Position numbers and translations under genes: made by a program | Notes under the pieces: model-generated | The model's database searches: none | What the model saw: the letters and a program-made list of their open reading frames with translations, nothing else | Told to the model about the DNA's origin: nothing | Assembly (NCBI GenBank): GCA_015491735.1 | Contig: WFVH01000023.1 | Location: forward strand, 1 to 64,000 | From: Gammaproteobacteria bacterium | GTDB lineage: Bacteria; Pseudomonadota; Gammaproteobacteria; Thiohalospirales; Thiohalospiraceae | Reading direction: 5' to 3' | Length of the DNA: 64,000 bases | Shown here: piece after piece, positions 1,111 to 9,185 of the stretch | Numbering within the stretch: the first letter of the stretch is position 1 | How the letters are laid out: every line of letters begins with the position of its first letter

Positions 1111-1207
1111 CCTGGCACTCAGCCGTTGTGTGTTTGCTCCTGGAAAGGCGTCGAAACGGTGCTGTAGCCCTGATGCCGAAGCAGTGACAAATTTTCGTTA
1201 ATAAAAA

Positions 1208-1242
1208 CGTCATGGAACCGGCGGAACGCCGGTTCCATGACG
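1208..1242 (-). terminator. Intrinsic terminator of sqr
   Basis: A perfect 16-bp inverted repeat (1208-1223 and 1227-1242) with a 3-base loop is followed, on the minus strand, by TTTTTATT. It lies 14 bases beyond the sqr stop codon. The structure is a textbook Rho-independent terminator for the minus strand. No matching T-run is present on the plus side, so it does not obviously stop the DUF423 transcript. Confidence 0.9.
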
Positions 1243-1255
1243 CACCACTTCGATC

Positions 1256-2527
1256 TCATTTCAGTTTGCCTATACCAACCATCTTGAGAATGTACTTTTC
1301 GAACACGGGTTCACTGGTTCCCTTTTTCATCTTTCTGATGAAATATTTCTCAAAAGCCTTCTTCGCCAGATGAACCCATCGGCCTTTTTTCATCCAGGCG
1401 ACATTACGCGGAGGGATTTGCGGCATAGCGACGAAAGCTGCACCGGTATCACCCATATCCGCCAGGCAGATTGCATTCCAGGTTGCCTGGGTAGAGGGCT
1501 GTTTGGCTTCCAGTACATCTCTTATGTTGTGGGCGACGGCAGTGGCCATCGATTCAATCATGTAGCCGGTTTTGGGCGCTCCGGTAGGAACCGGGGTGGC
1601 CTCCACCGGTGGAATGGCGATGCAGACCCCAACCGAATAGATATTGTTCCACTTCGGGTTACGCTGATACTCGTCCACTTTCACAAAACCACGGGGATTG
1701 ACCAGATCCTCCCCGACCTCCATGACCGGATCCACCCCTTTGAAGGCTGGCAGCATCATGGAGAAATTGAATGGCAACTCATGCTCCCCGGATGGGTTGC
1801 CCTGTTCGTCATGTTCGACGACATGCATGATGCCATCGTCTACCCTGGCCACCTTGGCGTTACAGATCCAGCGGATATGGCGGTGGCGAAGTTCAGATTC
1901 CATCATGCCTTTGGAATCACCTACCCCACCCAGCCCAAGATGACCGATGTAAGGCTCTGAAGTCACGAAGGTCATTGGTACCTGGTCCCGGATCTTCCGC
2001 TTACGCAAATCGGCATCCATAATAAAAGCGAACTCGTAGGCCGGACCAAAACAGGATGCCCCCTGGACGGCGCCAACCACAATCGGCCCCGGCCGTTCAA
2101 TGAATGCCTGCCAATTTTCGTAGGCCTTTTCGGCATGGTCTAGGGTACAGATAGAGCTGGTGAACCCTTCCGGGCCAGTGCCTTCAATCTCATCAAATGC
2201 CAGCTTGGGGCCGGTTGCAATCACCAGATAGTCATAATCGATTTCCCGATCATCGGCCAGCACAAGCCGATTGTCATCCGGCTTTATCCTGCTCACGCCA
2301 ACCGGAATGAAATCGATCCCTTTGGCGGTGACATAAGGCTCCAGCTTGAAGCTGACATCCTCCCGGTTCCGCCATCCAACAGCAACCCAGGGGTTCGACG
2401 GAACGAAATGAAAGGTGTCTGTGTTGGAAACAACGGTCACCTTGTGCTCTTTGCCCAGTATCTCACGAACCTCATAGGCGGTAGGCAACCCCCCGGTACT
2501 GGCCCCGACAATTACGATATGCGCCAT
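1256..2527 (-). CDS. sqr: Sulfide:quinone oxidoreductase
   Basis: This 423-residue flavoprotein oxidises sulfide to polysulfide or sulfane sulfur and passes electrons to the quinone pool at the inner membrane. An N-terminal FAD-binding motif (VIVGASTGG) is present. Three cysteines lie at C127 (SICTLDH), C159 (GASCFGP) and C354 (AICLADMG). From memory these match the redox and polysulfide-binding cysteines C128, C160 and C356 of the Acidithiobacillus ferrooxidans enzyme, offset by one or two. The C-terminal part has the conserved IPPVEATPVPTG and KTGYMIESM segments and a basic amphipathic tail fit for membrane binding. The ATG follows a strong AAAGGAG site. It is transcribed away from the RND efflux operon and ends at a strong hairpin terminator. 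Energy from sulfide, or sulfide detoxification, is the expected role. Confidence 0.93.
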   Translation of the reverse strand: MAHIVIVGASTGGLPTAYEVREILGKEHKVTVVSNTDTFHFVPSNPWVAVGWRNREDVSFKLEPYVTAKGIDFIPVGVSRIKPDDNRLVLADDREIDYDYLVIATGPKLAFDEIEGTGPEGFTSSICTLDHAEKAYENWQAFIERPGPIVVGAVQGASCFGPAYEFAFIMDADLRKRKIRDQVPMTFVTSEPYIGHLGLGGVGDSKGMMESELRHRHIRWICNAKVARVDDGIMHVVEHDEQGNPSGEHELPFNFSMMLPAFKGVDPVMEVGEDLVNPRGFVKVDEYQRNPKWNNIYSVGVCIAIPPVEATPVPTGAPKTGYMIESMATAVAHNIRDVLEAKQPSTQATWNAICLADMGDTGAAFVAMPQIPPRNVAWMKKGRWVHLAKKAFEKYFIRKMKKGTSEPVFEKYILKMVGIGKLK

Positions 2528-2653
2528 GAAACTGATCTCCTTTACTCTGATTCAGGAACTGTCATGCATCTTTTGGGCCATATGTAAACGGCCCCGGGAC
2601 GTACCACTCGATAGACTTCATGTACCAACGGGCAAAAATGTTTGCTCAAGGCG

Positions 2654-2682
2654 TTGACAATATGTAAAAGTGTTCATATCAT
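2654..2682 (+). promoter_or_regulatory. Sigma-70 promoter of the efflux operon
   Basis: TTGACA at 2654-2659 and TATCAT at 2677-2682 are separated by exactly 17 bases, close to the ideal sigma-70 arrangement. The first gene of the TolC-adaptor-RND operon starts about 35 bases downstream of the -10 box. The spacer and the -10 box are covered by an inverted repeat, consistent with repression by steric exclusion. Confidence 0.75.
2660..2679. promoter_or_regulatory. Likely operator for the ArsR/BigR-type repressor
   Basis: The 20 bases have arms ATATGTA and TTCATAT around a 6-base centre, an imperfect inverted repeat with 6 of 7 arm positions matched. It begins directly after the -35 box and runs into the -10 box. 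ArsR-family repressors of the BigR/YgaV/SqrR group bind AT-rich inverted repeats of this size over promoters, and such a regulator gene closes this operon. The half-site ATATGTAAA recurs at 2580-2588 in the sqr leader. Binding is inferred. Confidence 0.55.
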
Positions 2683-2717
2683 CATAATGCAATGAACCAC
2701 GAGAAGGAGTGACGGTA

Positions 2718-4079
2718 GTGTCTGTCTTCACAAGCAGTACGATGACTCGATTGATCATGCCATTGATTTTCCTGAACTCGATGCCGGTATTTTCTGCCCA
2801 GGATCCATCGGTGGTGGATTTTCCCGCCGCAGTGCGAATGGCAATGGTTCACAACCCGGAGCTGGCCGCCAGTGGCGAACAGGTTCAGACGGCCAGGGCA
2901 CAGCAACGGGCCGCCAGCAGTGGTTTGCTGCCGCGTCTCGACCTGAACGTGGAGGCGTCACGCACCAACGCCCCGCTCGGAGTTTTTGCCGGCAAGCTGT
3001 CGCAACAGCGGGTCGCCGCGACGGACTTTTCCCCTGCCTTGCTCAACGCTCCGGATGATTTCGACAACGTCAGAACCGCGGTCAAACTGAGCTGGCCGGT
3101 TTGGCAAGGTGGGGCGCTTCGGGCTGGCAAACGGCAGGCGGCGTCCGCGCTGGAGGCAGCTTCATACAGCCATGATATGCGCCAACAGAAACTGACCCTG
3201 GATGTGTTGACCGCCTATACCGGTGTTCATGAAGCAAAAGCGCAACTCAGAGCGAGCCAGGAGGCGCTCCAGGCGGCGCAGCAGCATGCCGGAATAAGCC
3301 GTGCCCAGCGGGATCAGGGTATGGCGGTCGACAGTGACGTGATGGCGGCAGAGGTTCACCGGTTGAATGCCGCGGTACAGCTGCATCGCGCCGAAAATGC
3401 CGCAGCGGATGCGTTGGATCAGCTGCGCGTACTGCTGAACATGGATCTGGAGCAACCGTTGACACTCGGTGCGATACCGCAGATTCCCGCGCTTCCCGAC
3501 GATCTGAGAACCCTCCAGCAGCGGACGTTGGAATCCCACCCGGATCTGCTGGCGCTGGAGGCCAGCCTGAAAGCCCGGCAGGCCGGGATCCGTGTCAAAC
3601 AGGCCGCATTCTATCCCTCCGTACAGTTGATGGCACAGCAAGAGTGGAACGACACCCGTCTGGCATTGGAAAACGACAACACCCTGGTGGCCGGCGTCAT
3701 CCATCTCAACCTGTTTGCCGGCGGAGCAGACAAGGCTGCAGTGGATGGCGCCAGGGCACAGGTCAACCGGCTGCAGTACCAGTTGGAAGCGGCCCGGCGC
3801 GCCTACCGTGCAGAAGTAGCGCGTGCCTGGCGGGGCCGTACAGAGGCCCGCTCCCGCGCCGAGGCACAGATCGAGGCGGAGCGGCAGGCTGCCGAAGCGC
3901 TGCGCATCACGGAGCTGCGTTACAAGGCCGGACTGGAGCGCACCGTTGATCTGTTGCAGGCCCAGGCCCGTCTGGATGCCGCCCGGGCACAACGTATTCA
4001 CACCGATTTCGAACGTATTTTGGCTGAAGCCCGCTTGCGCATAGCAGCAGGGCTGTTGCTTTTGGAGGATATTCTATGA
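2718..4079 (+). CDS. TolC-family outer membrane efflux protein
   Basis: This protein of about 453 residues forms the outer-membrane channel of a tripartite efflux pump. It has an N-terminal hydrophobic signal segment ending near VFSAQD and then two long heptad-rich helical halves typical of TolC-family proteins (for example the AKAQLRASQEALQAAQQH and LRYKAGLERTVDLLQAQARL-like regions near residues 175-200 and 395-415). I chose GTG 2718 because AAGGAG at 2703-2708 lies 9 bases before it; a GTG at 2709 directly abuts that site. The gene is first in an operon with the adaptor and RND permease and overlaps the adaptor by 4 bases (ATGA). The substrate is not shown by sequence. Confidence 0.85.
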   Translation: MSVFTSSTMTRLIMPLIFLNSMPVFSAQDPSVVDFPAAVRMAMVHNPELAASGEQVQTARAQQRAASSGLLPRLDLNVEASRTNAPLGVFAGKLSQQRVAATDFSPALLNAPDDFDNVRTAVKLSWPVWQGGALRAGKRQAASALEAASYSHDMRQQKLTLDVLTAYTGVHEAKAQLRASQEALQAAQQHAGISRAQRDQGMAVDSDVMAAEVHRLNAAVQLHRAENAAADALDQLRVLLNMDLEQPLTLGAIPQIPALPDDLRTLQQRTLESHPDLLALEASLKARQAGIRVKQAAFYPSVQLMAQQEWNDTRLALENDNTLVAGVIHLNLFAGGADKAAVDGARAQVNRLQYQLEAARRAYRAEVARAWRGRTEARSRAEAQIEAERQAAEALRITELRYKAGLERTVDLLQAQARLDAARAQRIHTDFERILAEARLRIAAGLLLLEDIL

Positions 4080-5206
4080 ACCTGAAACAGCTGTTCCGGA
4101 CAGGTATTCCATTGTCGGCCCGGCAACCAAAATCCGGGACACTCGGATATGGGGCCGCCGGGTTGGTCTTGTCGGTCATCCTGCTGACCGGGTGTTCCGG
4201 CAGTGAGCAAACCGGGGCCTCTGAATCGCCGGATGAAATCAAGGCCAGCGTAATGACGGTGACGCCCCAGCCGGTTCCGGTATTCTACAACAGCAGCGGC
4301 GTCGTGGTTTCCGAGCAGCGGGTAACCATCACCTCCCGCCTGTCCGGCTATATCCGTGATCTTTCAGTAAATGAAGGGGATCGGGTCAAGGCGGGACAGG
4401 TGCTGTTCCGGGTCGACCCGGTGGATGCCCGCTCCCAGCAGGAATCTGCCCGGGCGGCGCTGGTTCAGGCCGAAGCGGATCTCGCCGATGCCGAATCCGA
4501 CCGGCGGCGTTTTGAGACGCTGTTCGAACAGGGGGCTGTATCCCGGCGCCAGTTGGACAAGGCCCGACTGCGGGTAAAGGTGGCGCGGAGTGCGGTAAAA
4601 CAGGCAAAGGCCGCCTTGCGCAGCGCGAGTAACCAGCTCACCTATGCCGAGGTGCGCGCGCCTGCGAACGGCATCGTGGTGCGCAAACTGAAACGCAATG
4701 GCGATCTCGCCACACCGGGGGCGCCGGTATTGACCATGGAGAACCCCGACAACCTGGTCGTGGATACCCATGTGGACGAGGCCAATATCAACCATGTCCA
4801 GGTGGGAGACAAGGTGCAACTGCGCTTTCCTGCTTTCGATAAACAGCTCACCGGCGAGGTACTGCAGGTGGTTGGGGCCGCCGATCCGGTAGCGCACAAT
4901 TTTCTGGTCAAGATTGCGCTGCCGGCTGAGGTCAACGTTCTGGCGGGAGCCTATGTGAAAGTGCGCTTTACCGTTGCCACCCGGGAGGCGTTGATGCTGC
5001 CGGAAGAAGCGCTGTTCAGCCGTGGCGATCTGCCCGCGGTTTATATCGTGGATGAGCAGCATATCGCCCACTACCGGCTGGTGCGGCTGGGCCAGAAATA
5101 CAATGGCCAGTATGAAGTCACCGCCGGGTTGAGCGCCGGAGCAAAGGTGGTAACCGGCGCAGAAGGCGTGCTGCGCAGCGGCATGCGGATTGTGGCGGGG
5201 GAATGA
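4076..5206 (+). CDS. RND efflux periplasmic adaptor (HlyD/AcrA family lipoprotein)
   Basis: This 376-residue membrane-fusion protein links the RND pump to the TolC channel. A hydrophobic stretch ends in the lipobox LLTGC, with the lipidated cysteine at residue 40, so the N-terminal extension is longer than usual. The order of domains is typical: a lipoyl half (SRLSGYIRDLSVNEGDRVKAGQ), a coiled-coil hairpin (residues about 125-185), the second lipoyl half (YAEVRAPANGIVVRKL), then beta-barrel and membrane-proximal domains ending at GMRIVAGE. Start and stop both overlap neighbouring genes by 4 bases, so the three pump genes are translationally coupled. Confidence 0.88.
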   Translation: MNLKQLFRTGIPLSARQPKSGTLGYGAAGLVLSVILLTGCSGSEQTGASESPDEIKASVMTVTPQPVPVFYNSSGVVVSEQRVTITSRLSGYIRDLSVNEGDRVKAGQVLFRVDPVDARSQQESARAALVQAEADLADAESDRRRFETLFEQGAVSRRQLDKARLRVKVARSAVKQAKAALRSASNQLTYAEVRAPANGIVVRKLKRNGDLATPGAPVLTMENPDNLVVDTHVDEANINHVQVGDKVQLRFPAFDKQLTGEVLQVVGAADPVAHNFLVKIALPAEVNVLAGAYVKVRFTVATREALMLPEEALFSRGDLPAVYIVDEQHIAHYRLVRLGQKYNGQYEVTAGLSAGAKVVTGAEGVLRSGMRIVAGE

Positions 5207-8200
5207 GCGCCATGAACGAACAACAGACCCACGAACTCAACATCGCTGGCCGGCTCGGCAAGGCGGCGATGAACAGTACGCTGACGCCACTGATCAGTGT
5301 GCTGATATTCCTGATCGGGGTGGTAGCGCTTTTCATCACCCCCCGAGAGGAGAATCCGCAGATCGATGTCCCGGCCGCCAATGTATTCGTGCGCATGGAG
5401 GGGGCCAGTCCCGCCGAGGTGCTGAACAAGGTGGTTCGCCCGCTGGAGTCCGTACTGCGCGAGATGAGCGCTGTCGAACACACCTACGGTATGGCGCAGG
5501 ATTCGCTTGCTATCGTTACTGTTCAGTTTGAGGTGGGTGAAGACAAGGAAGAGAGTCTGGTCAAACTCTACGACCGGCTGATGCACAACCTGGATCGCAT
5601 CCCGCCGGGAGCCAGTCAGCCGCTGGTAAAACCGGTGGATGTGGATGATGTACCGATTGTGGTACTGACGCTGTCCAGTGACGAACTGGATGATATGGCG
5701 CTGAAACGCCTGGCCGAACGGGTCAGGGAGCAGCTGGTGCCGCTCGATGGCGTCAGTGTGACCGATATTGTGGGCGGACGGGATCGGCAGATCAGTATCC
5801 AGATCGATCCGGTACGTCTCGGCGCCTACCGGATCCCGCTGGATCGCCTGCAGCAGGTTCTGCAGGGCGCCAACGCCGGTGGCCCGGTAGGTGAGCTGGT
5901 GGGAGATAACCAGGTCGCCCGCGTCTGGCTGCAAGGCTATCTGAAATCGGTGGAGGATGTAGGGGCGCTGGTAGTTGGTGAGTGGGAAGGTAGCCCCATA
6001 TTCCTGCGTGATGTGGCCACACTTCACGATGGTCCCGCCGAGGTGGACTCTCTGCACCGGATCGGTTTTGGCCCCGGGCATGACGCGAACGCCGCCGCGG
6101 AACCACAGCGCCCGGCCGTCTCCATCAGCCTGGCAAAAAAACGCGGAACCAACGCCGTATTCGTTGCCGAACGTATTCTGGAGAAAGTTGAAACGCTGAA
6201 GGAGGATTTCATTCCCGGCAATGTTACCGTCACCGTTACCCGCGACTCGGGGGAGCGGGCCAATGATGCGGTCAACATACTCATCGAGCATCTGGGTATC
6301 GCCATCGGCTCGGTCATCATCATCTTGTTGCTGTTCCTGGGCTGGCGCGAGGCGGCCATTGTTACCTTGAACATTCCCCTGATCCTGTTCGTGGTGTTCG
6401 CCGCTGGCCTGCTGGCTGATCAGACCATTAACCGCATCACCCTGTTCGCCCTGATTCTGGCGCTGGGGCTGCTGGTGGATGACGCTATCGTGGTGGTGGA
6501 GAATATTCACCGTCACCTGCACAAAGGGGTACACAGCCTCAAGGAGAAAGCGCGGGTGATTATCGAAGCGACCAATGAAACCGGCAAACCAACCATTATC
6601 GCCACTTTTGCGGTCATTCTGGCATTCATCCCGATGGCCTTCGTAACCGGCATGATGGGACCCTACATGGCTCCCATTCCATTCAATACACCGGTGGCAA
6701 TGCTGGCCTCATTGATCATTGCCTACATGGTGACACCCTGGATTGCACAACGCTGGATGCCATGCAGGATAACCGAACCCGCCATGGAAGAGCGGGATGC
6801 CAATCAGAAAGACTGGATTCACCGGCTTTACTACCGTCTGGCACTCCCGCTGGTGGAAGGAACCTGGCAGCGCTGGGTACTGTTCTTCGTCGTACTGCTG
6901 ATGATGATCGGAGCCCTGTTGCAGCCCGCCTGGCAGTTCATGCGCCCGTCGGGGATAGGCGGGCCAATGACACCGGGCACCGTGGAGCTGAAAATGCTGC
7001 CCAAGGGTAACAAAAACACGTTCAACATCACCATTGACATGCCGGAAGGCACTCCACTGGAGATGACCGATGGCATCGCCAGGGAGGTGGCGGATGTGCT
7101 GCGAGTCTATCCCTATGTGACCGACTACGAAACCTTCGTCGGCCAGGCCGGACCGGTGGATTTCAACGGTATGCTGCGCGGCTCGGTGTTGCGCCGGGGT
7201 TCGCATCTGGCCGAGCTTCGGGTCAATCTGACCGACAAGCTCGAACGCAGTATCAAATCCGACGCCATCGTGCTGGAACTGCGTGAAAAGCTGCGCCCGC
7301 TGATGAAAGCGTATCCACAGGCCAATATCAAACTGGTCGAGGATCCACCTGGTCCGCCGGTGCGCGCCACGGTGCTGGCGGAGCTTTACGGCCCCGAGTC
7401 AGACAAATTGGCGGAGCTGGTACAGAAAGTCCGCAGTGAGTTCGAGCAGACCTATGATCTGGTGGATATCGACGACTCGCTGGGTGACGACCAGGTGGAA
7501 TACCGCATCGAAGTGGATAAAGAGAAGGCCGCTCGGCTGGGAATCTCCACGGCGCAGGTGATGCAGACTATCGGCTCTTTTCTGGGAGGCTTCGATCTGG
7601 GGGCTGTGCATGACGAAAACGAGCGGCATCCGGTCAAGATCCATGTCCGGCTACCCCGCGAACATCGGGTGCATCTCTCGGATCTCGGCCAGATCTATAT
7701 CAGTGACCGTGAGGGGCGGCCCGTCTCCCTGGGTTCACTGGCCGAGATTTTTGAAGTGACCGCATCGAAACCGGTCTACACCAAGGACGGTCATAGGGTG
7801 GCCTATGTATCGGCTGAGCCGATGCGGGGTTCCCAGGTCTACCCATTGCTGGATCTGGATGGGCGGCTGGATGGAATGGATCTGGGCGCAGCCGGTCAAT
7901 TGACCACCGCCGGACTGAAGTTTGTATCCGTACAACCGGATGACACCTATAACTACCAGCTTCTCTGGGACGGGGAAATGCGCCTCACCCTGGATGTATT
8001 CCGCGATCTGGGCTCGGCGTTCATCGTGGCGCTGGTGCTTATCTACCTGCTGCTGGTGGCCTACTACGCCAACTTCCAGACGCCGTTGCTGGTGATGGGG
8101 GCCATTCCGCTTACCATGATCGGTATCTTTCCCGGACACTGGATCATGCAGCAGCCGTTCACAGCCACCTCGATGATCGGCATGATCGCCCTGGCGGGGA

Positions 8201-8505
8201 TCGTGGTGCGCAACTCGCTGCTGTTGATAGATTTTATCATCGACTATCGCGCCAGGGGGCATGATGTGAAAACCGCTGTACTGGAGGCAGGCGCAGTGCG
8301 TACCCGGCCTATCCTGCTGACAGCGCTGGCGGTTATTGCGGGCACCTCCATCATGATAAGTGATCCGGTATTTGGCGGACTCGGAATTTCGATGGCCTTC
8401 GGCACCCTGGCTTCGACCGTGTTGACGCTGTTCGTCATCCCGCTGGCCTACTACCGGTGGCAGCGCAACAAACCGCTGCTTAAAGAAGAGCGTTGTGAAA
8501 TTTGA
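5203..8505 (+). CDS. RND efflux permease (AcrB/AcrD/AcrF-like)
   Basis: This 1100-residue inner-membrane proton antiporter is the motor of the tripartite pump. The sequence shows the two-fold RND layout: a first helix, a large periplasmic loop, a block of six helices, then a repeat of that pattern. The adjacent acidic pair D426-D427 in LGLLVDDAIVVVEN lies in the helix that carries the proton-relay aspartates in this family. The last helix block (ALVLIYLLLVAYY to VLTLFVIPLAYY) is also complete. It is somewhat longer than AcrB. The substrate cannot be told from sequence; position beside sqr and an ArsR-type sulfur or metal sensor suggests a compound linked to sulfide or thiol stress. Confidence 0.9.
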   Translation: MSAMNEQQTHELNIAGRLGKAAMNSTLTPLISVLIFLIGVVALFITPREENPQIDVPAANVFVRMEGASPAEVLNKVVRPLESVLREMSAVEHTYGMAQDSLAIVTVQFEVGEDKEESLVKLYDRLMHNLDRIPPGASQPLVKPVDVDDVPIVVLTLSSDELDDMALKRLAERVREQLVPLDGVSVTDIVGGRDRQISIQIDPVRLGAYRIPLDRLQQVLQGANAGGPVGELVGDNQVARVWLQGYLKSVEDVGALVVGEWEGSPIFLRDVATLHDGPAEVDSLHRIGFGPGHDANAAAEPQRPAVSISLAKKRGTNAVFVAERILEKVETLKEDFIPGNVTVTVTRDSGERANDAVNILIEHLGIAIGSVIIILLLFLGWREAAIVTLNIPLILFVVFAAGLLADQTINRITLFALILALGLLVDDAIVVVENIHRHLHKGVHSLKEKARVIIEATNETGKPTIIATFAVILAFIPMAFVTGMMGPYMAPIPFNTPVAMLASLIIAYMVTPWIAQRWMPCRITEPAMEERDANQKDWIHRLYYRLALPLVEGTWQRWVLFFVVLLMMIGALLQPAWQFMRPSGIGGPMTPGTVELKMLPKGNKNTFNITIDMPEGTPLEMTDGIAREVADVLRVYPYVTDYETFVGQAGPVDFNGMLRGSVLRRGSHLAELRVNLTDKLERSIKSDAIVLELREKLRPLMKAYPQANIKLVEDPPGPPVRATVLAELYGPESDKLAELVQKVRSEFEQTYDLVDIDDSLGDDQVEYRIEVDKEKAARLGISTAQVMQTIGSFLGGFDLGAVHDENERHPVKIHVRLPREHRVHLSDLGQIYISDREGRPVSLGSLAEIFEVTASKPVYTKDGHRVAYVSAEPMRGSQVYPLLDLDGRLDGMDLGAAGQLTTAGLKFVSVQPDDTYNYQLLWDGEMRLTLDVFRDLGSAFIVALVLIYLLLVAYYANFQTPLLVMGAIPLTMIGIFPGHWIMQQPFTATSMIGMIALAGIVVRNSLLLIDFIIDYRARGHDVKTAVLEAGAVRTRPILLTALAVIAGTSIMISDPVFGGLGISMAFGTLASTVLTLFVIPLAYYRWQRNKPLLKEERCEI

Positions 8506-8582
8506 TTTTGTTTGATGACGAGTGGCCCGGCAATACCGATATTCGTGTCTTCGGCATCGTCGGGAAGATGGCAAGAACATCC

Positions 8583-8604
8583 GGAACCCACCGGGTTCCC
8601 CGGT
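8583..8604 (+). terminator. Possible internal terminator or attenuator
   Basis: GGAACCC and GGGTTCC (8583-8589, 8593-8599) form a 7-bp stem with a 3-base loop, followed by CCGG and TTTTT. It lies in the 130-base gap between the RND permease gene and the DUF2892 gene. It would lower transcription of DUF2892 and the ArsR gene relative to the pump genes. No separate promoter was recognised after it. Confidence 0.5.
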
Positions 8605-8635
8605 TTTTCCAAGACAGTAACGCGGAGGTGATATC

Positions 8636-8872
8636 ATGACTATTGAACGTCTTATTCGAATTATCGCAGGCAGCTTTATCCTGCTTTCCCTGTTTTTGGC
8701 CTGGTCCGTCAATAACATACCGTTTTTCGATGGGCCCAACTGGCTGTGGTTTACCGCTTTCATCGGCGCCAATCTACTGCAATCCGGTTTTACCCGCTGG
8801 TGTCTGATGGCGCAAATTCTCGCAAAGCTTGGGATTCCCTCTGGCTGCGTGGAAAGTGGCAGCAAGTGCTAA
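8636..8872 (+). CDS. DUF2892 (YgaP-like) small membrane protein
   Basis: This 78-residue protein has two hydrophobic segments (residues about 8-28 and 36-56) and ends in a Cys-containing tail. It matches the DUF2892 type, which forms the C-terminal membrane part of E. coli YgaP, a rhodanese co-transcribed with the ArsR-type regulator YgaV. Here only the membrane part exists, without a rhodanese domain. Cysteines occur near the end (RWCLMAQ, SGCVESGSKC). The start is an ATG after GGAGGTGATATC, a strong ribosome site. The ArsR gene follows 16 bases later. A role in sulfur handling at the membrane is inferred only from this context. Confidence 0.7.
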   Translation: MTIERLIRIIAGSFILLSLFLAWSVNNIPFFDGPNWLWFTAFIGANLLQSGFTRWCLMAQILAKLGIPSGCVESGSKC

Positions 8873-8888
8873 GCTGCCGGTTAGACAG

Positions 8889-9185
8889 ATGGAATCGATA
8901 GAAGGAAAGGACATTCAGGCAGCAGCGGAAGGATTGAAGGCTATTGCTCACAGCACACGTCTGGAAGTCTTGTGCCGGCTGCAAAAAGAACCAATGACGG
9001 TAAACGAACTGGTTGAGGCGACCGGCGCAACCCAGTCCAATCTGTCCCATCACCTTGCTAAAATGCGGGCAATGGGACTGGTGACAACCGAGCGCCAGGG
9101 AAACTGTATCCACTACTCCCTGGCGCACCCGGGTTACTCCGATTTGATACAGGTACTGCGCGATATTTATTGCACCGACCGGTAA
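8889..9185 (+). CDS. ArsR/SmtB-family repressor, BigR/SqrR/YgaV-like
   Basis: This 98-residue winged-helix regulator has the recognition region TQSNLSHHLAKMRAMGLV at residues 48-65. It keeps two cysteines in the positions that define the persulfide-responsive BigR/SqrR/YgaV group: C29 in RLEVLCRL and C95 in DIYCTDR; a third cysteine, C73 (GNCIHY), is extra. In that group the cysteine pair forms a disulfide or tetrasulfide link on exposure to reactive sulfur, releasing DNA. I chose ATG 8889 over a TTG at 8829, which would overlap DUF2892 and add an unusual extension. It is the last gene of the efflux operon, which probably gives autoregulation through the inverted repeat at 2660-2679. Confidence 0.85.
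   Translation: MESIEGKDIQAAAEGLKAIAHSTRLEVLCRLQKEPMTVNELVEATGATQSNLSHHLAKMRAMGLVTTERQGNCIHYSLAHPGYSDLIQVLRDIYCTDR

Follow-up and report, generated by a model that had tools for sequence, protein, structure and literature searches.

The window, i.e. the whole 64,000-nucleotide stretch analysed here, carries what is probably a tripartite RND efflux operon that regulates itself, is induced by sulfane sulfur and forms part of a sulfide-detoxification regulon. The features that point to this can be read from the sequences: the gene content of the locus, a cysteine pair in the operon's own ArsR-family repressor, a conserved promoter-operator block, and a clade-wide linkage of the pump to sulfide and persulfide genes.

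The sqr gene on the reverse strand and the TolC-adaptor-RND-DUF2892-ArsR operon on the forward strand (about 2709-9185) face away from each other (Table 1), a back-to-back layout that the sequence-only reading had described and that gene calls and profile matches bore out. The OEP channel, the HlyD/RND_mfp adaptor and the ACR_tran permease form a complete tripartite RND set within one operon; GTG 2718, preceded by AAGGAG at 2704-2709, is a likelier TolC start than 2709. The window SQR aligns over its full length with the Acidithiobacillus ferrooxidans enzyme, and its three active-site cysteines are all matched. No rhodanese, TauE or persulfide dioxygenase adjoins the operon in the window, with sqr its sole sulfur neighbour; the content of a bigR-type operon (persulfide dioxygenase, sulfurtransferase, and TauE together with the repressor) is thus lacking there, while relatives have it in part or whole. 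The permease scores below every curated NCBIfam RND cut-off, both of the multidrug models (NF033617, 473.6 versus 1250 bits; NF000282, 326.9 versus 1250; TIGR00915, 292.5 versus 940.35) and of the CzcA/CusA heavy-metal model TIGR00914 (271.7 versus 701.45); it is HAE-like, and its nearest, though distant, relatives are MdtB/OqxB-type pumps.

Table 1. Features of the sqr and pump locus, in positions of the window
Feature	Position	Strand	Evidence or detail
Intrinsic terminator-like hairpin directly 3' of sqr	1207-1243	-	17 pairs, 11 GC, T-rich tail
sqr, sulfide:quinone oxidoreductase, nearest the A. ferrooxidans enzyme	1256-2527	-	3sz0, E 1.1e-163
Sigma-70-type pump promoter	2654-2682	+	TTGACA 2654-2659, 17-nt spacer, TATCAT 2677-2682; 11/12 consensus match
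Predicted repressor operator ATATGTAAAAGTGTTCATAT (ATATGnA-N6-TnCATAT)	2660-2679		-35/-10 spacer and start of -10
Imperfect inverted repeat	2672-2697		arms 2672-2682/2687-2697, 82% complementary
TolC-family outer-membrane channel	2709-4079	+	OEP 174.7 bits
Periplasmic adaptor, HlyD/RND_mfp family	4076-5206	+	TIGR01730 230 bits, cut-off 94.9
RND permease, 1100 aa, HAE-like	5203-8505	+	ACR_tran 527.7 bits
DUF2892/YgaP-like_TM small membrane protein	8636-8872	+	PF11127 55.6 bits
ArsR-family repressor, alpha2/alpha5 Cys pair C29/C95	8889-9185	+	open frame from TTG 8829

The last gene of the operon encodes a winged-helix protein (HTH_5 60.1 bits, cut-off 22), whose likely start is ATG 8889, because in the frame that opens at TTG 8829 the alignment with congeners mostly sets in near residue 20. 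Numbered from this ATG, C29 and C95 align with the cysteines of HlyU, YgaV and SqrR, and among the 28 ArsR proteins compared this alpha2/alpha5 pair was invariant (27/27 and 28/28) and the only invariant Cys. The persulfide-sensor pair claimed from the sequence alone is therefore as in BigR, SqrR, YgaV and HlyU. The structures matched by the window ArsR, 6o8k-6o8o and 13ct, are presumably those of SqrR. On the BigR model NF040642 it reached 60.2 bits, under the cut-off of 155, and E. coli YgaV was also under it (59.0), so that the miss excludes BigR proper only; the NF033788 'metalloregulator' cut-off was passed by both proteins. The sensor type first proposed for this ArsR hence agrees with comparative genomics, given the invariant pair and the score level with YgaV, which PMC9774250 describes as a sulfide-responsive repressor. 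The remark that DUF2892 occurs beside ygaV in E. coli was also right, since ygaP follows ygaV and YgaP holds a rhodanese domain plus PF11127.

Upstream of the pump, TTGACA was invariant and the -10 element read TATCAT or TATTAT in all four congeners holding the promoter stretch, and in the same 4/4 the conserved block consisted of the promoter and ATATGtAaaagtgTtCATAT at 2660-2679. This predicted site takes the form ATATGtA-N6-TtCATAT in the window and is placed between -35 and -10; genome-wide, ATATGWAN7CATAT has a single exact match in each of G000, G003 and G006, namely the pump site. An inverted repeat covering the operon promoter had been singled out earlier as the operator, but the repeat at 2672-2697 is probably not it, because its right arm (2687-2697) is not conserved in the congeners, and the conserved site is 2660-2679. 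Inspection by eye of at most 320 bases upstream of nine sqr copies showed no second operator copy in the genus, and an operator common to sqr and the pump is thus unsupported.

Within the genus, the pump and sqr were both present in six of the eight genomes and both absent in the remaining two, with an sqr copy 86-91% identical in 5/7 of the other genomes. They diverge in G000, G005 and G006, although in G005 a thioredoxin-TPR gene separates sqr from the pump operon and its operator. None of the eight genomes has a close persulfide dioxygenase, the best matches being partial and at 30-50%.

Outside the genus, 39 close pump loci were compared with 36 more distant ones. Rhodanese was linked in 12/26 and TauE in 9/26 of the close loci with at least 2.5 kb downstream, and SQR in 7/20 where the downstream flank reached 6.5 kb or more, versus 0/28, 0/28 and 0/23 of the distant loci. 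The linked SQR was of the A. ferrooxidans type in 6/7, that of L075 having been dropped from this class as a different type (32% identical). When congeners and Ghiorsea-like genomes were left aside, the close loci with enough flank held DUF2892 in 20/21, ArsR in 15/17, rhodanese in 12/19, TauE in 9/19 and SQR in 7/16, versus DUF2892 in 0/32 and ArsR in 1/28 of the distant ones. This survey of the closest RND homologues, suggested by the sequence-only reading, backs its view of the pump as a sulfide or persulfide regulon member and of sqr as a meaningful neighbour. Mariprofundus-type operons run ArsR-TolC-adaptor-RND-DUF2892-rhodanese(s), often plus TauE and SQR. Linked ArsR is missing at L073 and L074; ArsR and rhodanese are present and linked SQR is absent at L079, L090 and L100; and in three gammaproteobacteria (L092, L101, L106) the models used detected neither SQR nor rhodanese nor TauE up to 10 kb away. 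In the SQR tree the linked zetaproteobacterial and the own-genus SQRs form separate groups, so SQR linkage to the pump probably arose at least twice.

Ghiorsea-like genomes keep the orthologous ArsR (65-71%) away from the pump in 8/8, and there DUF2892 and rhodanese(s) come after it in 7/7 regions, with TauE in four and an MBL protein in three, of which the one tested matches ETHE1, a persulfide dioxygenase (E 1.6e-75). The palindrome ATTAG-N6-CTAAT stands at both the pump unit and the regulator unit in these genomes, with at most one mismatch in 7/7 regulator regions. Exact copies lie upstream of the pump operon in 13/30 close regions (shuffles: mean 0.03), for a motif picked by eye from the same regions as were counted and with 9 of the 13 being Ghiorsea-like. 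One-mismatch sites also occur about 310-320 bases upstream of SQR in the Zetaproteobacteria L085 and L087. The inner bases of the own-genus operator are unlike this family palindrome, which was not found within two mismatches near ygaV in E. coli.

By analogy with the known homologues, persulfide sensing and derepression by the window ArsR may proceed as follows. A dimer of this BigR/SqrR/YgaV-type repressor would occupy its predicted site and block the pump promoter; as the divergent SQR and other enzymes oxidise sulfide, persulfides or polysulfides would accumulate, which would bridge C29 and C95 and make the repressor release DNA; the five operon products, ArsR included, would then be made, and the pump may expel a reactive-sulfur product, or something sulfur-damaged, from the periplasm or outer leaflet.

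As a first guess, the cargo might be a product of SQR, either polysulfide or hydrophobic S0. Since the pump in relatives lies inside, or shares its control site with, a sulfide-detoxification set, it probably helps cells to get rid of reactive sulfur; a dedicated RND exporter carrying SQR-made polysulfide or S8 from the periplasm out through TolC is a tentative and rather unlikely extension of this. It is quite possible that sulfane sulfur serves as signal only, for a general xenobiotic/multidrug or envelope-repair pump induced under sulfide stress and carrying no sulfur, much as MexAB-OprM is under MexR. The kinship of the HAE-like permease would allow this, and PMC11211675 describes MexR and MarR as sulfane-sulfur sensors that govern multidrug resistance. 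A general drug pump, however, would have no need to stay in a clade-specific operon alongside rhodanese, TauE and SQR, and the operator is kept at the pump even where the regulator sits elsewhere.

Efflux of metals, metalloids or organotin, with ArsR a classical metal sensor and sqr a chance neighbour, is improbable. The family, the NF033788 score (shared with YgaV) and an arsenite-methyltransferase-like gene that G003 and G004 hold within a few kb of sqr would fit it, but the alpha2/alpha5 pair is the sole invariant Cys, no ArsR/SmtB metal motif was seen, the permease falls far short on the CzcA/CusA model, and the neighbours in relatives are sulfur genes. Tributyltin, on the same side as the metal sensor, derepresses ygaVP according to PMC9774250. 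That sqr and the pump are neighbours by accident, the operon being a locally autoregulated pump with no tie to sulfide, appears very improbable: the lack of a visible operator copy at sqr and the three sulfur-gene-free gammaproteobacterial loci would agree with it, but SQR linkage recurs from separate SQR lineages, an orthologous regulator and the same palindrome occur at rhodanese/dioxygenase/TauE units, and pump and sqr are present or absent jointly in 8/8 genus genomes.

Taken as a probable sulfane-sulfur-inducible operon, the locus would add tripartite efflux to the genes under BigR-type sensing and supplies a predicted operator to seek. No RND pump is known to have been assigned the task of carrying zero-valent sulfur through the outer membrane. 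A direct candidate for S0 export is offered by a pump clade that has its operon, or its regulator and operator, in common with SQR, rhodaneses, TauE and a persulfide dioxygenase, and if the exporter reading is true, sulfide- and iron-oxidising bacteria would shed zero-valent sulfur outside rather than oxidise or store it. Cultured Mariprofundus strains, among them Mariprofundus sp. EBB-1 with the L078 operon, carry this pump clade, and the sulfur-export idea is thereby open to testing.

Among known systems, SqrR of Rhodobacter capsulatus is an ArsR protein with the same Cys pair and has sqr among the genes concerned; its operator is unlike that of the window, and it comes without a tripartite pump. 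YgaV-YgaP of E. coli likewise combines ArsR, YgaP-like_TM and rhodanese, and YgaV equals the window ArsR on the BigR model, but TM and rhodanese are fused, there is no pump, and the promoter stretch is without ATTAGN6CTAAT. The bigR operon of Xylella fastidiosa and Agrobacterium tumefaciens, according to PMC5823870, comprises a two-Cys ArsR acting on the promoter -10 region, a TauE-related transporter, persulfide dioxygenase and sulfurtransferase; the Ghiorsea-like regulator unit is very similar in content, whereas bigR lacks an RND pump and the window locus lacks TauE and dioxygenase. For two-Cys sulfane-sulfur (sHdrR-like) ArsR regulators, the accessible part of PMC12423496 (Mol Microbiol 2025) names sqr, rhodanese, TauE and RND, an association of the same kind as here, stated there in general terms only; because RND pumps are already listed among the suggested targets, calling a complete RND target unusual, as the sequence-only reading did, was too strong. 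Apart from that general sentence, the open-access literature, mostly at title and abstract level, gave no recognised description in which this pump clade occurs together with sqr or rhodanese, and the clade may be in Table S1 or Fig. S2 of that paper. In Pseudomonas aeruginosa the RND pump MexAB-OprM is controlled by MexR, a repressor that senses sulfane sulfur (PMC11211675), a layout like the one proposed here, but MexR is of the MarR family rather than ArsR and MexAB-OprM has no sulfur-gene operon. An ArsR-RND neighbourhood is thus already in print in general form, and at the present locus a dedicated tripartite pump would form part of a BigR-type sulfide-detoxification regulon.

The assembly holding the window comprises 2.43 Mb, and the records of its genus-mates are titled Gammaproteobacteria or Chromatiales. 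In the window, sqr on the minus strand diverges from a five-gene operon on the plus strand, of which the channel/adaptor and adaptor/permease junctions each overlap by 4 bases. Three cysteines of the SQR align with those of the Acidithiobacillus ferrooxidans enzyme, and the ArsR was aligned to HlyU, YgaV and SqrR through to the C-terminal Cys. The permease, HAE-like with an ACR_tran score of 527.7 bits, fell under all curated NCBIfam RND cut-offs, the heavy-metal one included, and its nearest solved structures, of the MdtB and OqxB type, are only distant. A small hairpin (GGAACCC-ACC-GGGTTCC, 8583-8599), a possible attenuator or processing site, sits in the 130 bases that separate RND from DUF2892.

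Genes of the divergent sqr-pump locus in the window, and thioredoxin-TPR genes beside sqr in two congeners
Feature	Position	Strand	Remark
sqr	1256-2527	-	SQR, full-length match to the A. ferrooxidans enzyme
TolC	2709-4079	+	outer-membrane channel
adaptor	4076-5206	+	periplasmic adaptor
RND permease	5203-8505	+	HAE-like
DUF2892	8636-8872	+	small gene between RND and ArsR
ArsR	end at 9185	+	last gene of the five-gene operon
thioredoxin-TPR gene	L166:4362-5270	-	beside sqr in G005; the copy covered by the scan
thioredoxin-TPR gene	L167:83-772	+	beside sqr in G004

The pump was found in six of the eight genus genomes and SQR of the window type in the same six; neither was found in G002 and G007, which are only 85% and 91% complete, respectively. 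In G000 and G006 the two units face directly away from each other. Between sqr and the operator of G005 lies, on the sqr strand, a thioredoxin-TPR gene that we take to be CnoX/YbbN-like, and the trx-sqr half of this arrangement is seen up to the contig end in G004; contigs of G001 are too short to display the arrangement. The pump and sqr contigs of G003 both end near these genes and may adjoin, because their first 14 bases are mutually reverse complementary. Related repeat-like sequence was also observed at their ends (L068:225-400 and L051:1-240), as though a repeat separating sqr from the pump had interrupted the assembly.

Relatives were collected by scanning named genomes with an alignment of five permeases, and the best 80 of 295 were divided into 44 close loci (L068-L109, L120 and L141; ≥63% permease identity) and 36 distant ones. 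Besides five congeners, the close loci belong mostly to Zetaproteobacteria (Mariprofundus, Ghiorsea), the rest being from other gammaproteobacteria; in a tree built from 42 chosen permeases, those of the close loci form a single group (35 rows, SH-like 100). Twelve were classed as Ghiorsea-like by title, tree or hand, including L093 and L097, whose records bear the title Mariprofundaceae and whose downstream sequence is too short for the DUF2892 and ArsR counts. Among the 27 remaining non-congener close loci of these best 80, counting those with enough flank, DUF2892 was linked in 20/21, ArsR in 15/17, rhodanese in 12/19 and TauE in 9/19, and SQR lay within 10 kb in 7/16, one of the seven (L075) being of another type. 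Adding the Ghiorsea-like loci gave 20/29, 15/25, 12/26, 9/26 and 7/20, respectively; the distant loci yielded 0/32, 1/28, 0/28, 0/28 and 0/23, with the rhodanese and TauE models built from the compared loci themselves, such that divergent forms could escape in the distant set. The array of Mariprofundus sp. EBB-1 runs ArsR-TolC-adaptor-RND-DUF2892-rhodanese-TauE-rhodanese-rhodanese-DUF302-Crp-SQR on a single strand. Five pump-linked zetaproteobacterial SQRs fell into one group (100/100) with that of L080 apart, and the own-genus SQRs grouped with that of G010, for which no link to a pump is known (94/95). Since the linked zetaproteobacterial and own-genus SQRs form separate groups, the SQR-pump linkage probably arose at least twice.

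Although the Ghiorsea-like pump loci have neither ArsR nor DUF2892 nearby (0/8 with enough flank), the palindrome ATTAGN6CTAAT precedes TolC in many of them; its strict form occurs once per genome in four of eight Ghiorsea-like genomes, at a place that the coordinates identify as the pump promoter. All eight encode elsewhere an ArsR that shares 65-71% identity with one from Mariprofundaceae. In the seven of these eight regions that were compared, some cut off by contig ends, DUF2892 and rhodanese(s) follow this ArsR in 7/7, TauE in 4/7 and an MBL protein in 3/7 (ETHE1-like in L193; 4chl, E 1.6e-75), and the palindrome (≤1 mismatch) stands just upstream of ArsR in 5/7 and anywhere in 7/7. A single regulator-operator pair thus seems to serve both the pump and a persulfide unit of bigR type. 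As for chance and INDEPENDENCE, 39 close loci were eligible, nine of them lacking upstream sequence; ATTAGN6CTAAT was found upstream in 13 of 30 exactly and in 18 with ≤1 mismatch (30 dinucleotide shuffles averaged 0.03 and 0.37), and in the distant set in 1/34 and 7/34 (shuffles 0.03 and 0.37). The motif was picked from the same close regions in which it was counted and nine of the 13 exact matches come from Ghiorsea-like loci, which lowers the effective number; the trans placement is a stronger argument than these counts. A one-mismatch copy also lies about 310-320 bases upstream of SQR at L085:11673 and L087:9248, before or within a second small membrane-protein gene, which suggests that sqr has its own operator copy there.

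Fourteen of the 36 distant loci (L110-L113, L115-L117, L119, L123, L126, L127, L132, L133 and L144) lack a full adaptor; its place between TolC and RND is taken by an open frame of ∼120-190 aa with a signal/lipobox-like start and only a C-terminal membrane-proximal-like domain; a tripartite pump with such a mini-adaptor would be odd. The predicted structure from L117 (pLDDT 83), whose input alignment contained the C-terminal portion of the adaptor in the window, matches the same portion of adaptors of the MexA/AcrA type (Foldseek E 4e-5). ATTAGN6CTAAT (≤1 mismatch) occurs in seven of the 14 and in none of the other distant loci. Genomes with these pumps carry another two-Cys ArsR in a different neighbourhood (L211-L215), adjoining a rhodanese-model match in L213-L215.

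In the window, the pump promoter reads TTGACA-17-TATCAT (first base 2654), and the four genus genomes with the stretch upstream of TolC (G000, G003, G005 and G006) conserve the block TTGACAATATG-A----TG--CATAT-ATCAT. The inverted repeat at 2672-2697 is probably not the operator, its right arm not being conserved in these four. The palindrome at 2660-2679 occupies the promoter spacer, so that a repressor bound there would block polymerase, and is our predicted operator. Its pattern ATATGWAN7CATAT is matched exactly just once per genome in G000, G003 and G006, always at the pump promoter, is present with one mismatch in G005, and matches once exactly in G002, elsewhere. The site shares the 20-base frame ATAT-N12-ATAT with the family palindrome, whereas the inner bases differ; the likely recognition helix reads SNLSHHL in own-genus ArsRs versus SNLSQHL in most others, a possible matched change of operator and regulator.

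Gene content, the conserved Cys pair, the conserved promoter-operator block and the clade-wide sulfur linkage are seen directly in the sequences. In homologous systems, polysulfide or persulfide releases two-Cys ArsR repressors (PMC5823870; PMC12423496). By a release step taken from these homologues, sulfane sulfur made by SQR and others would induce the pump, which would in turn clear a sulfur product or the damage that it does. SQR probably acts at the periplasmic face and would then release its product at the site from which RND pumps take their substrates; for this reason polysulfide/S0 is the cargo we favour, if only tentatively. That the pump merely follows the sulfane-sulfur signal and exports other things is a serious possibility, nearly as likely as polysulfide/S0 export or likelier.

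Parts of this picture are known: according to PMC12423496, two-Cys sulfane-sulfur ArsR regulators appear to act on nearby genes for sqr, pdo, rhodanese, TauE and RND, and control of an RND pump by sulfane sulfur is described for MexR (PMC11211675). A search of a library of open-access papers found nothing on this pump clade, its operon, operator or split regulon.
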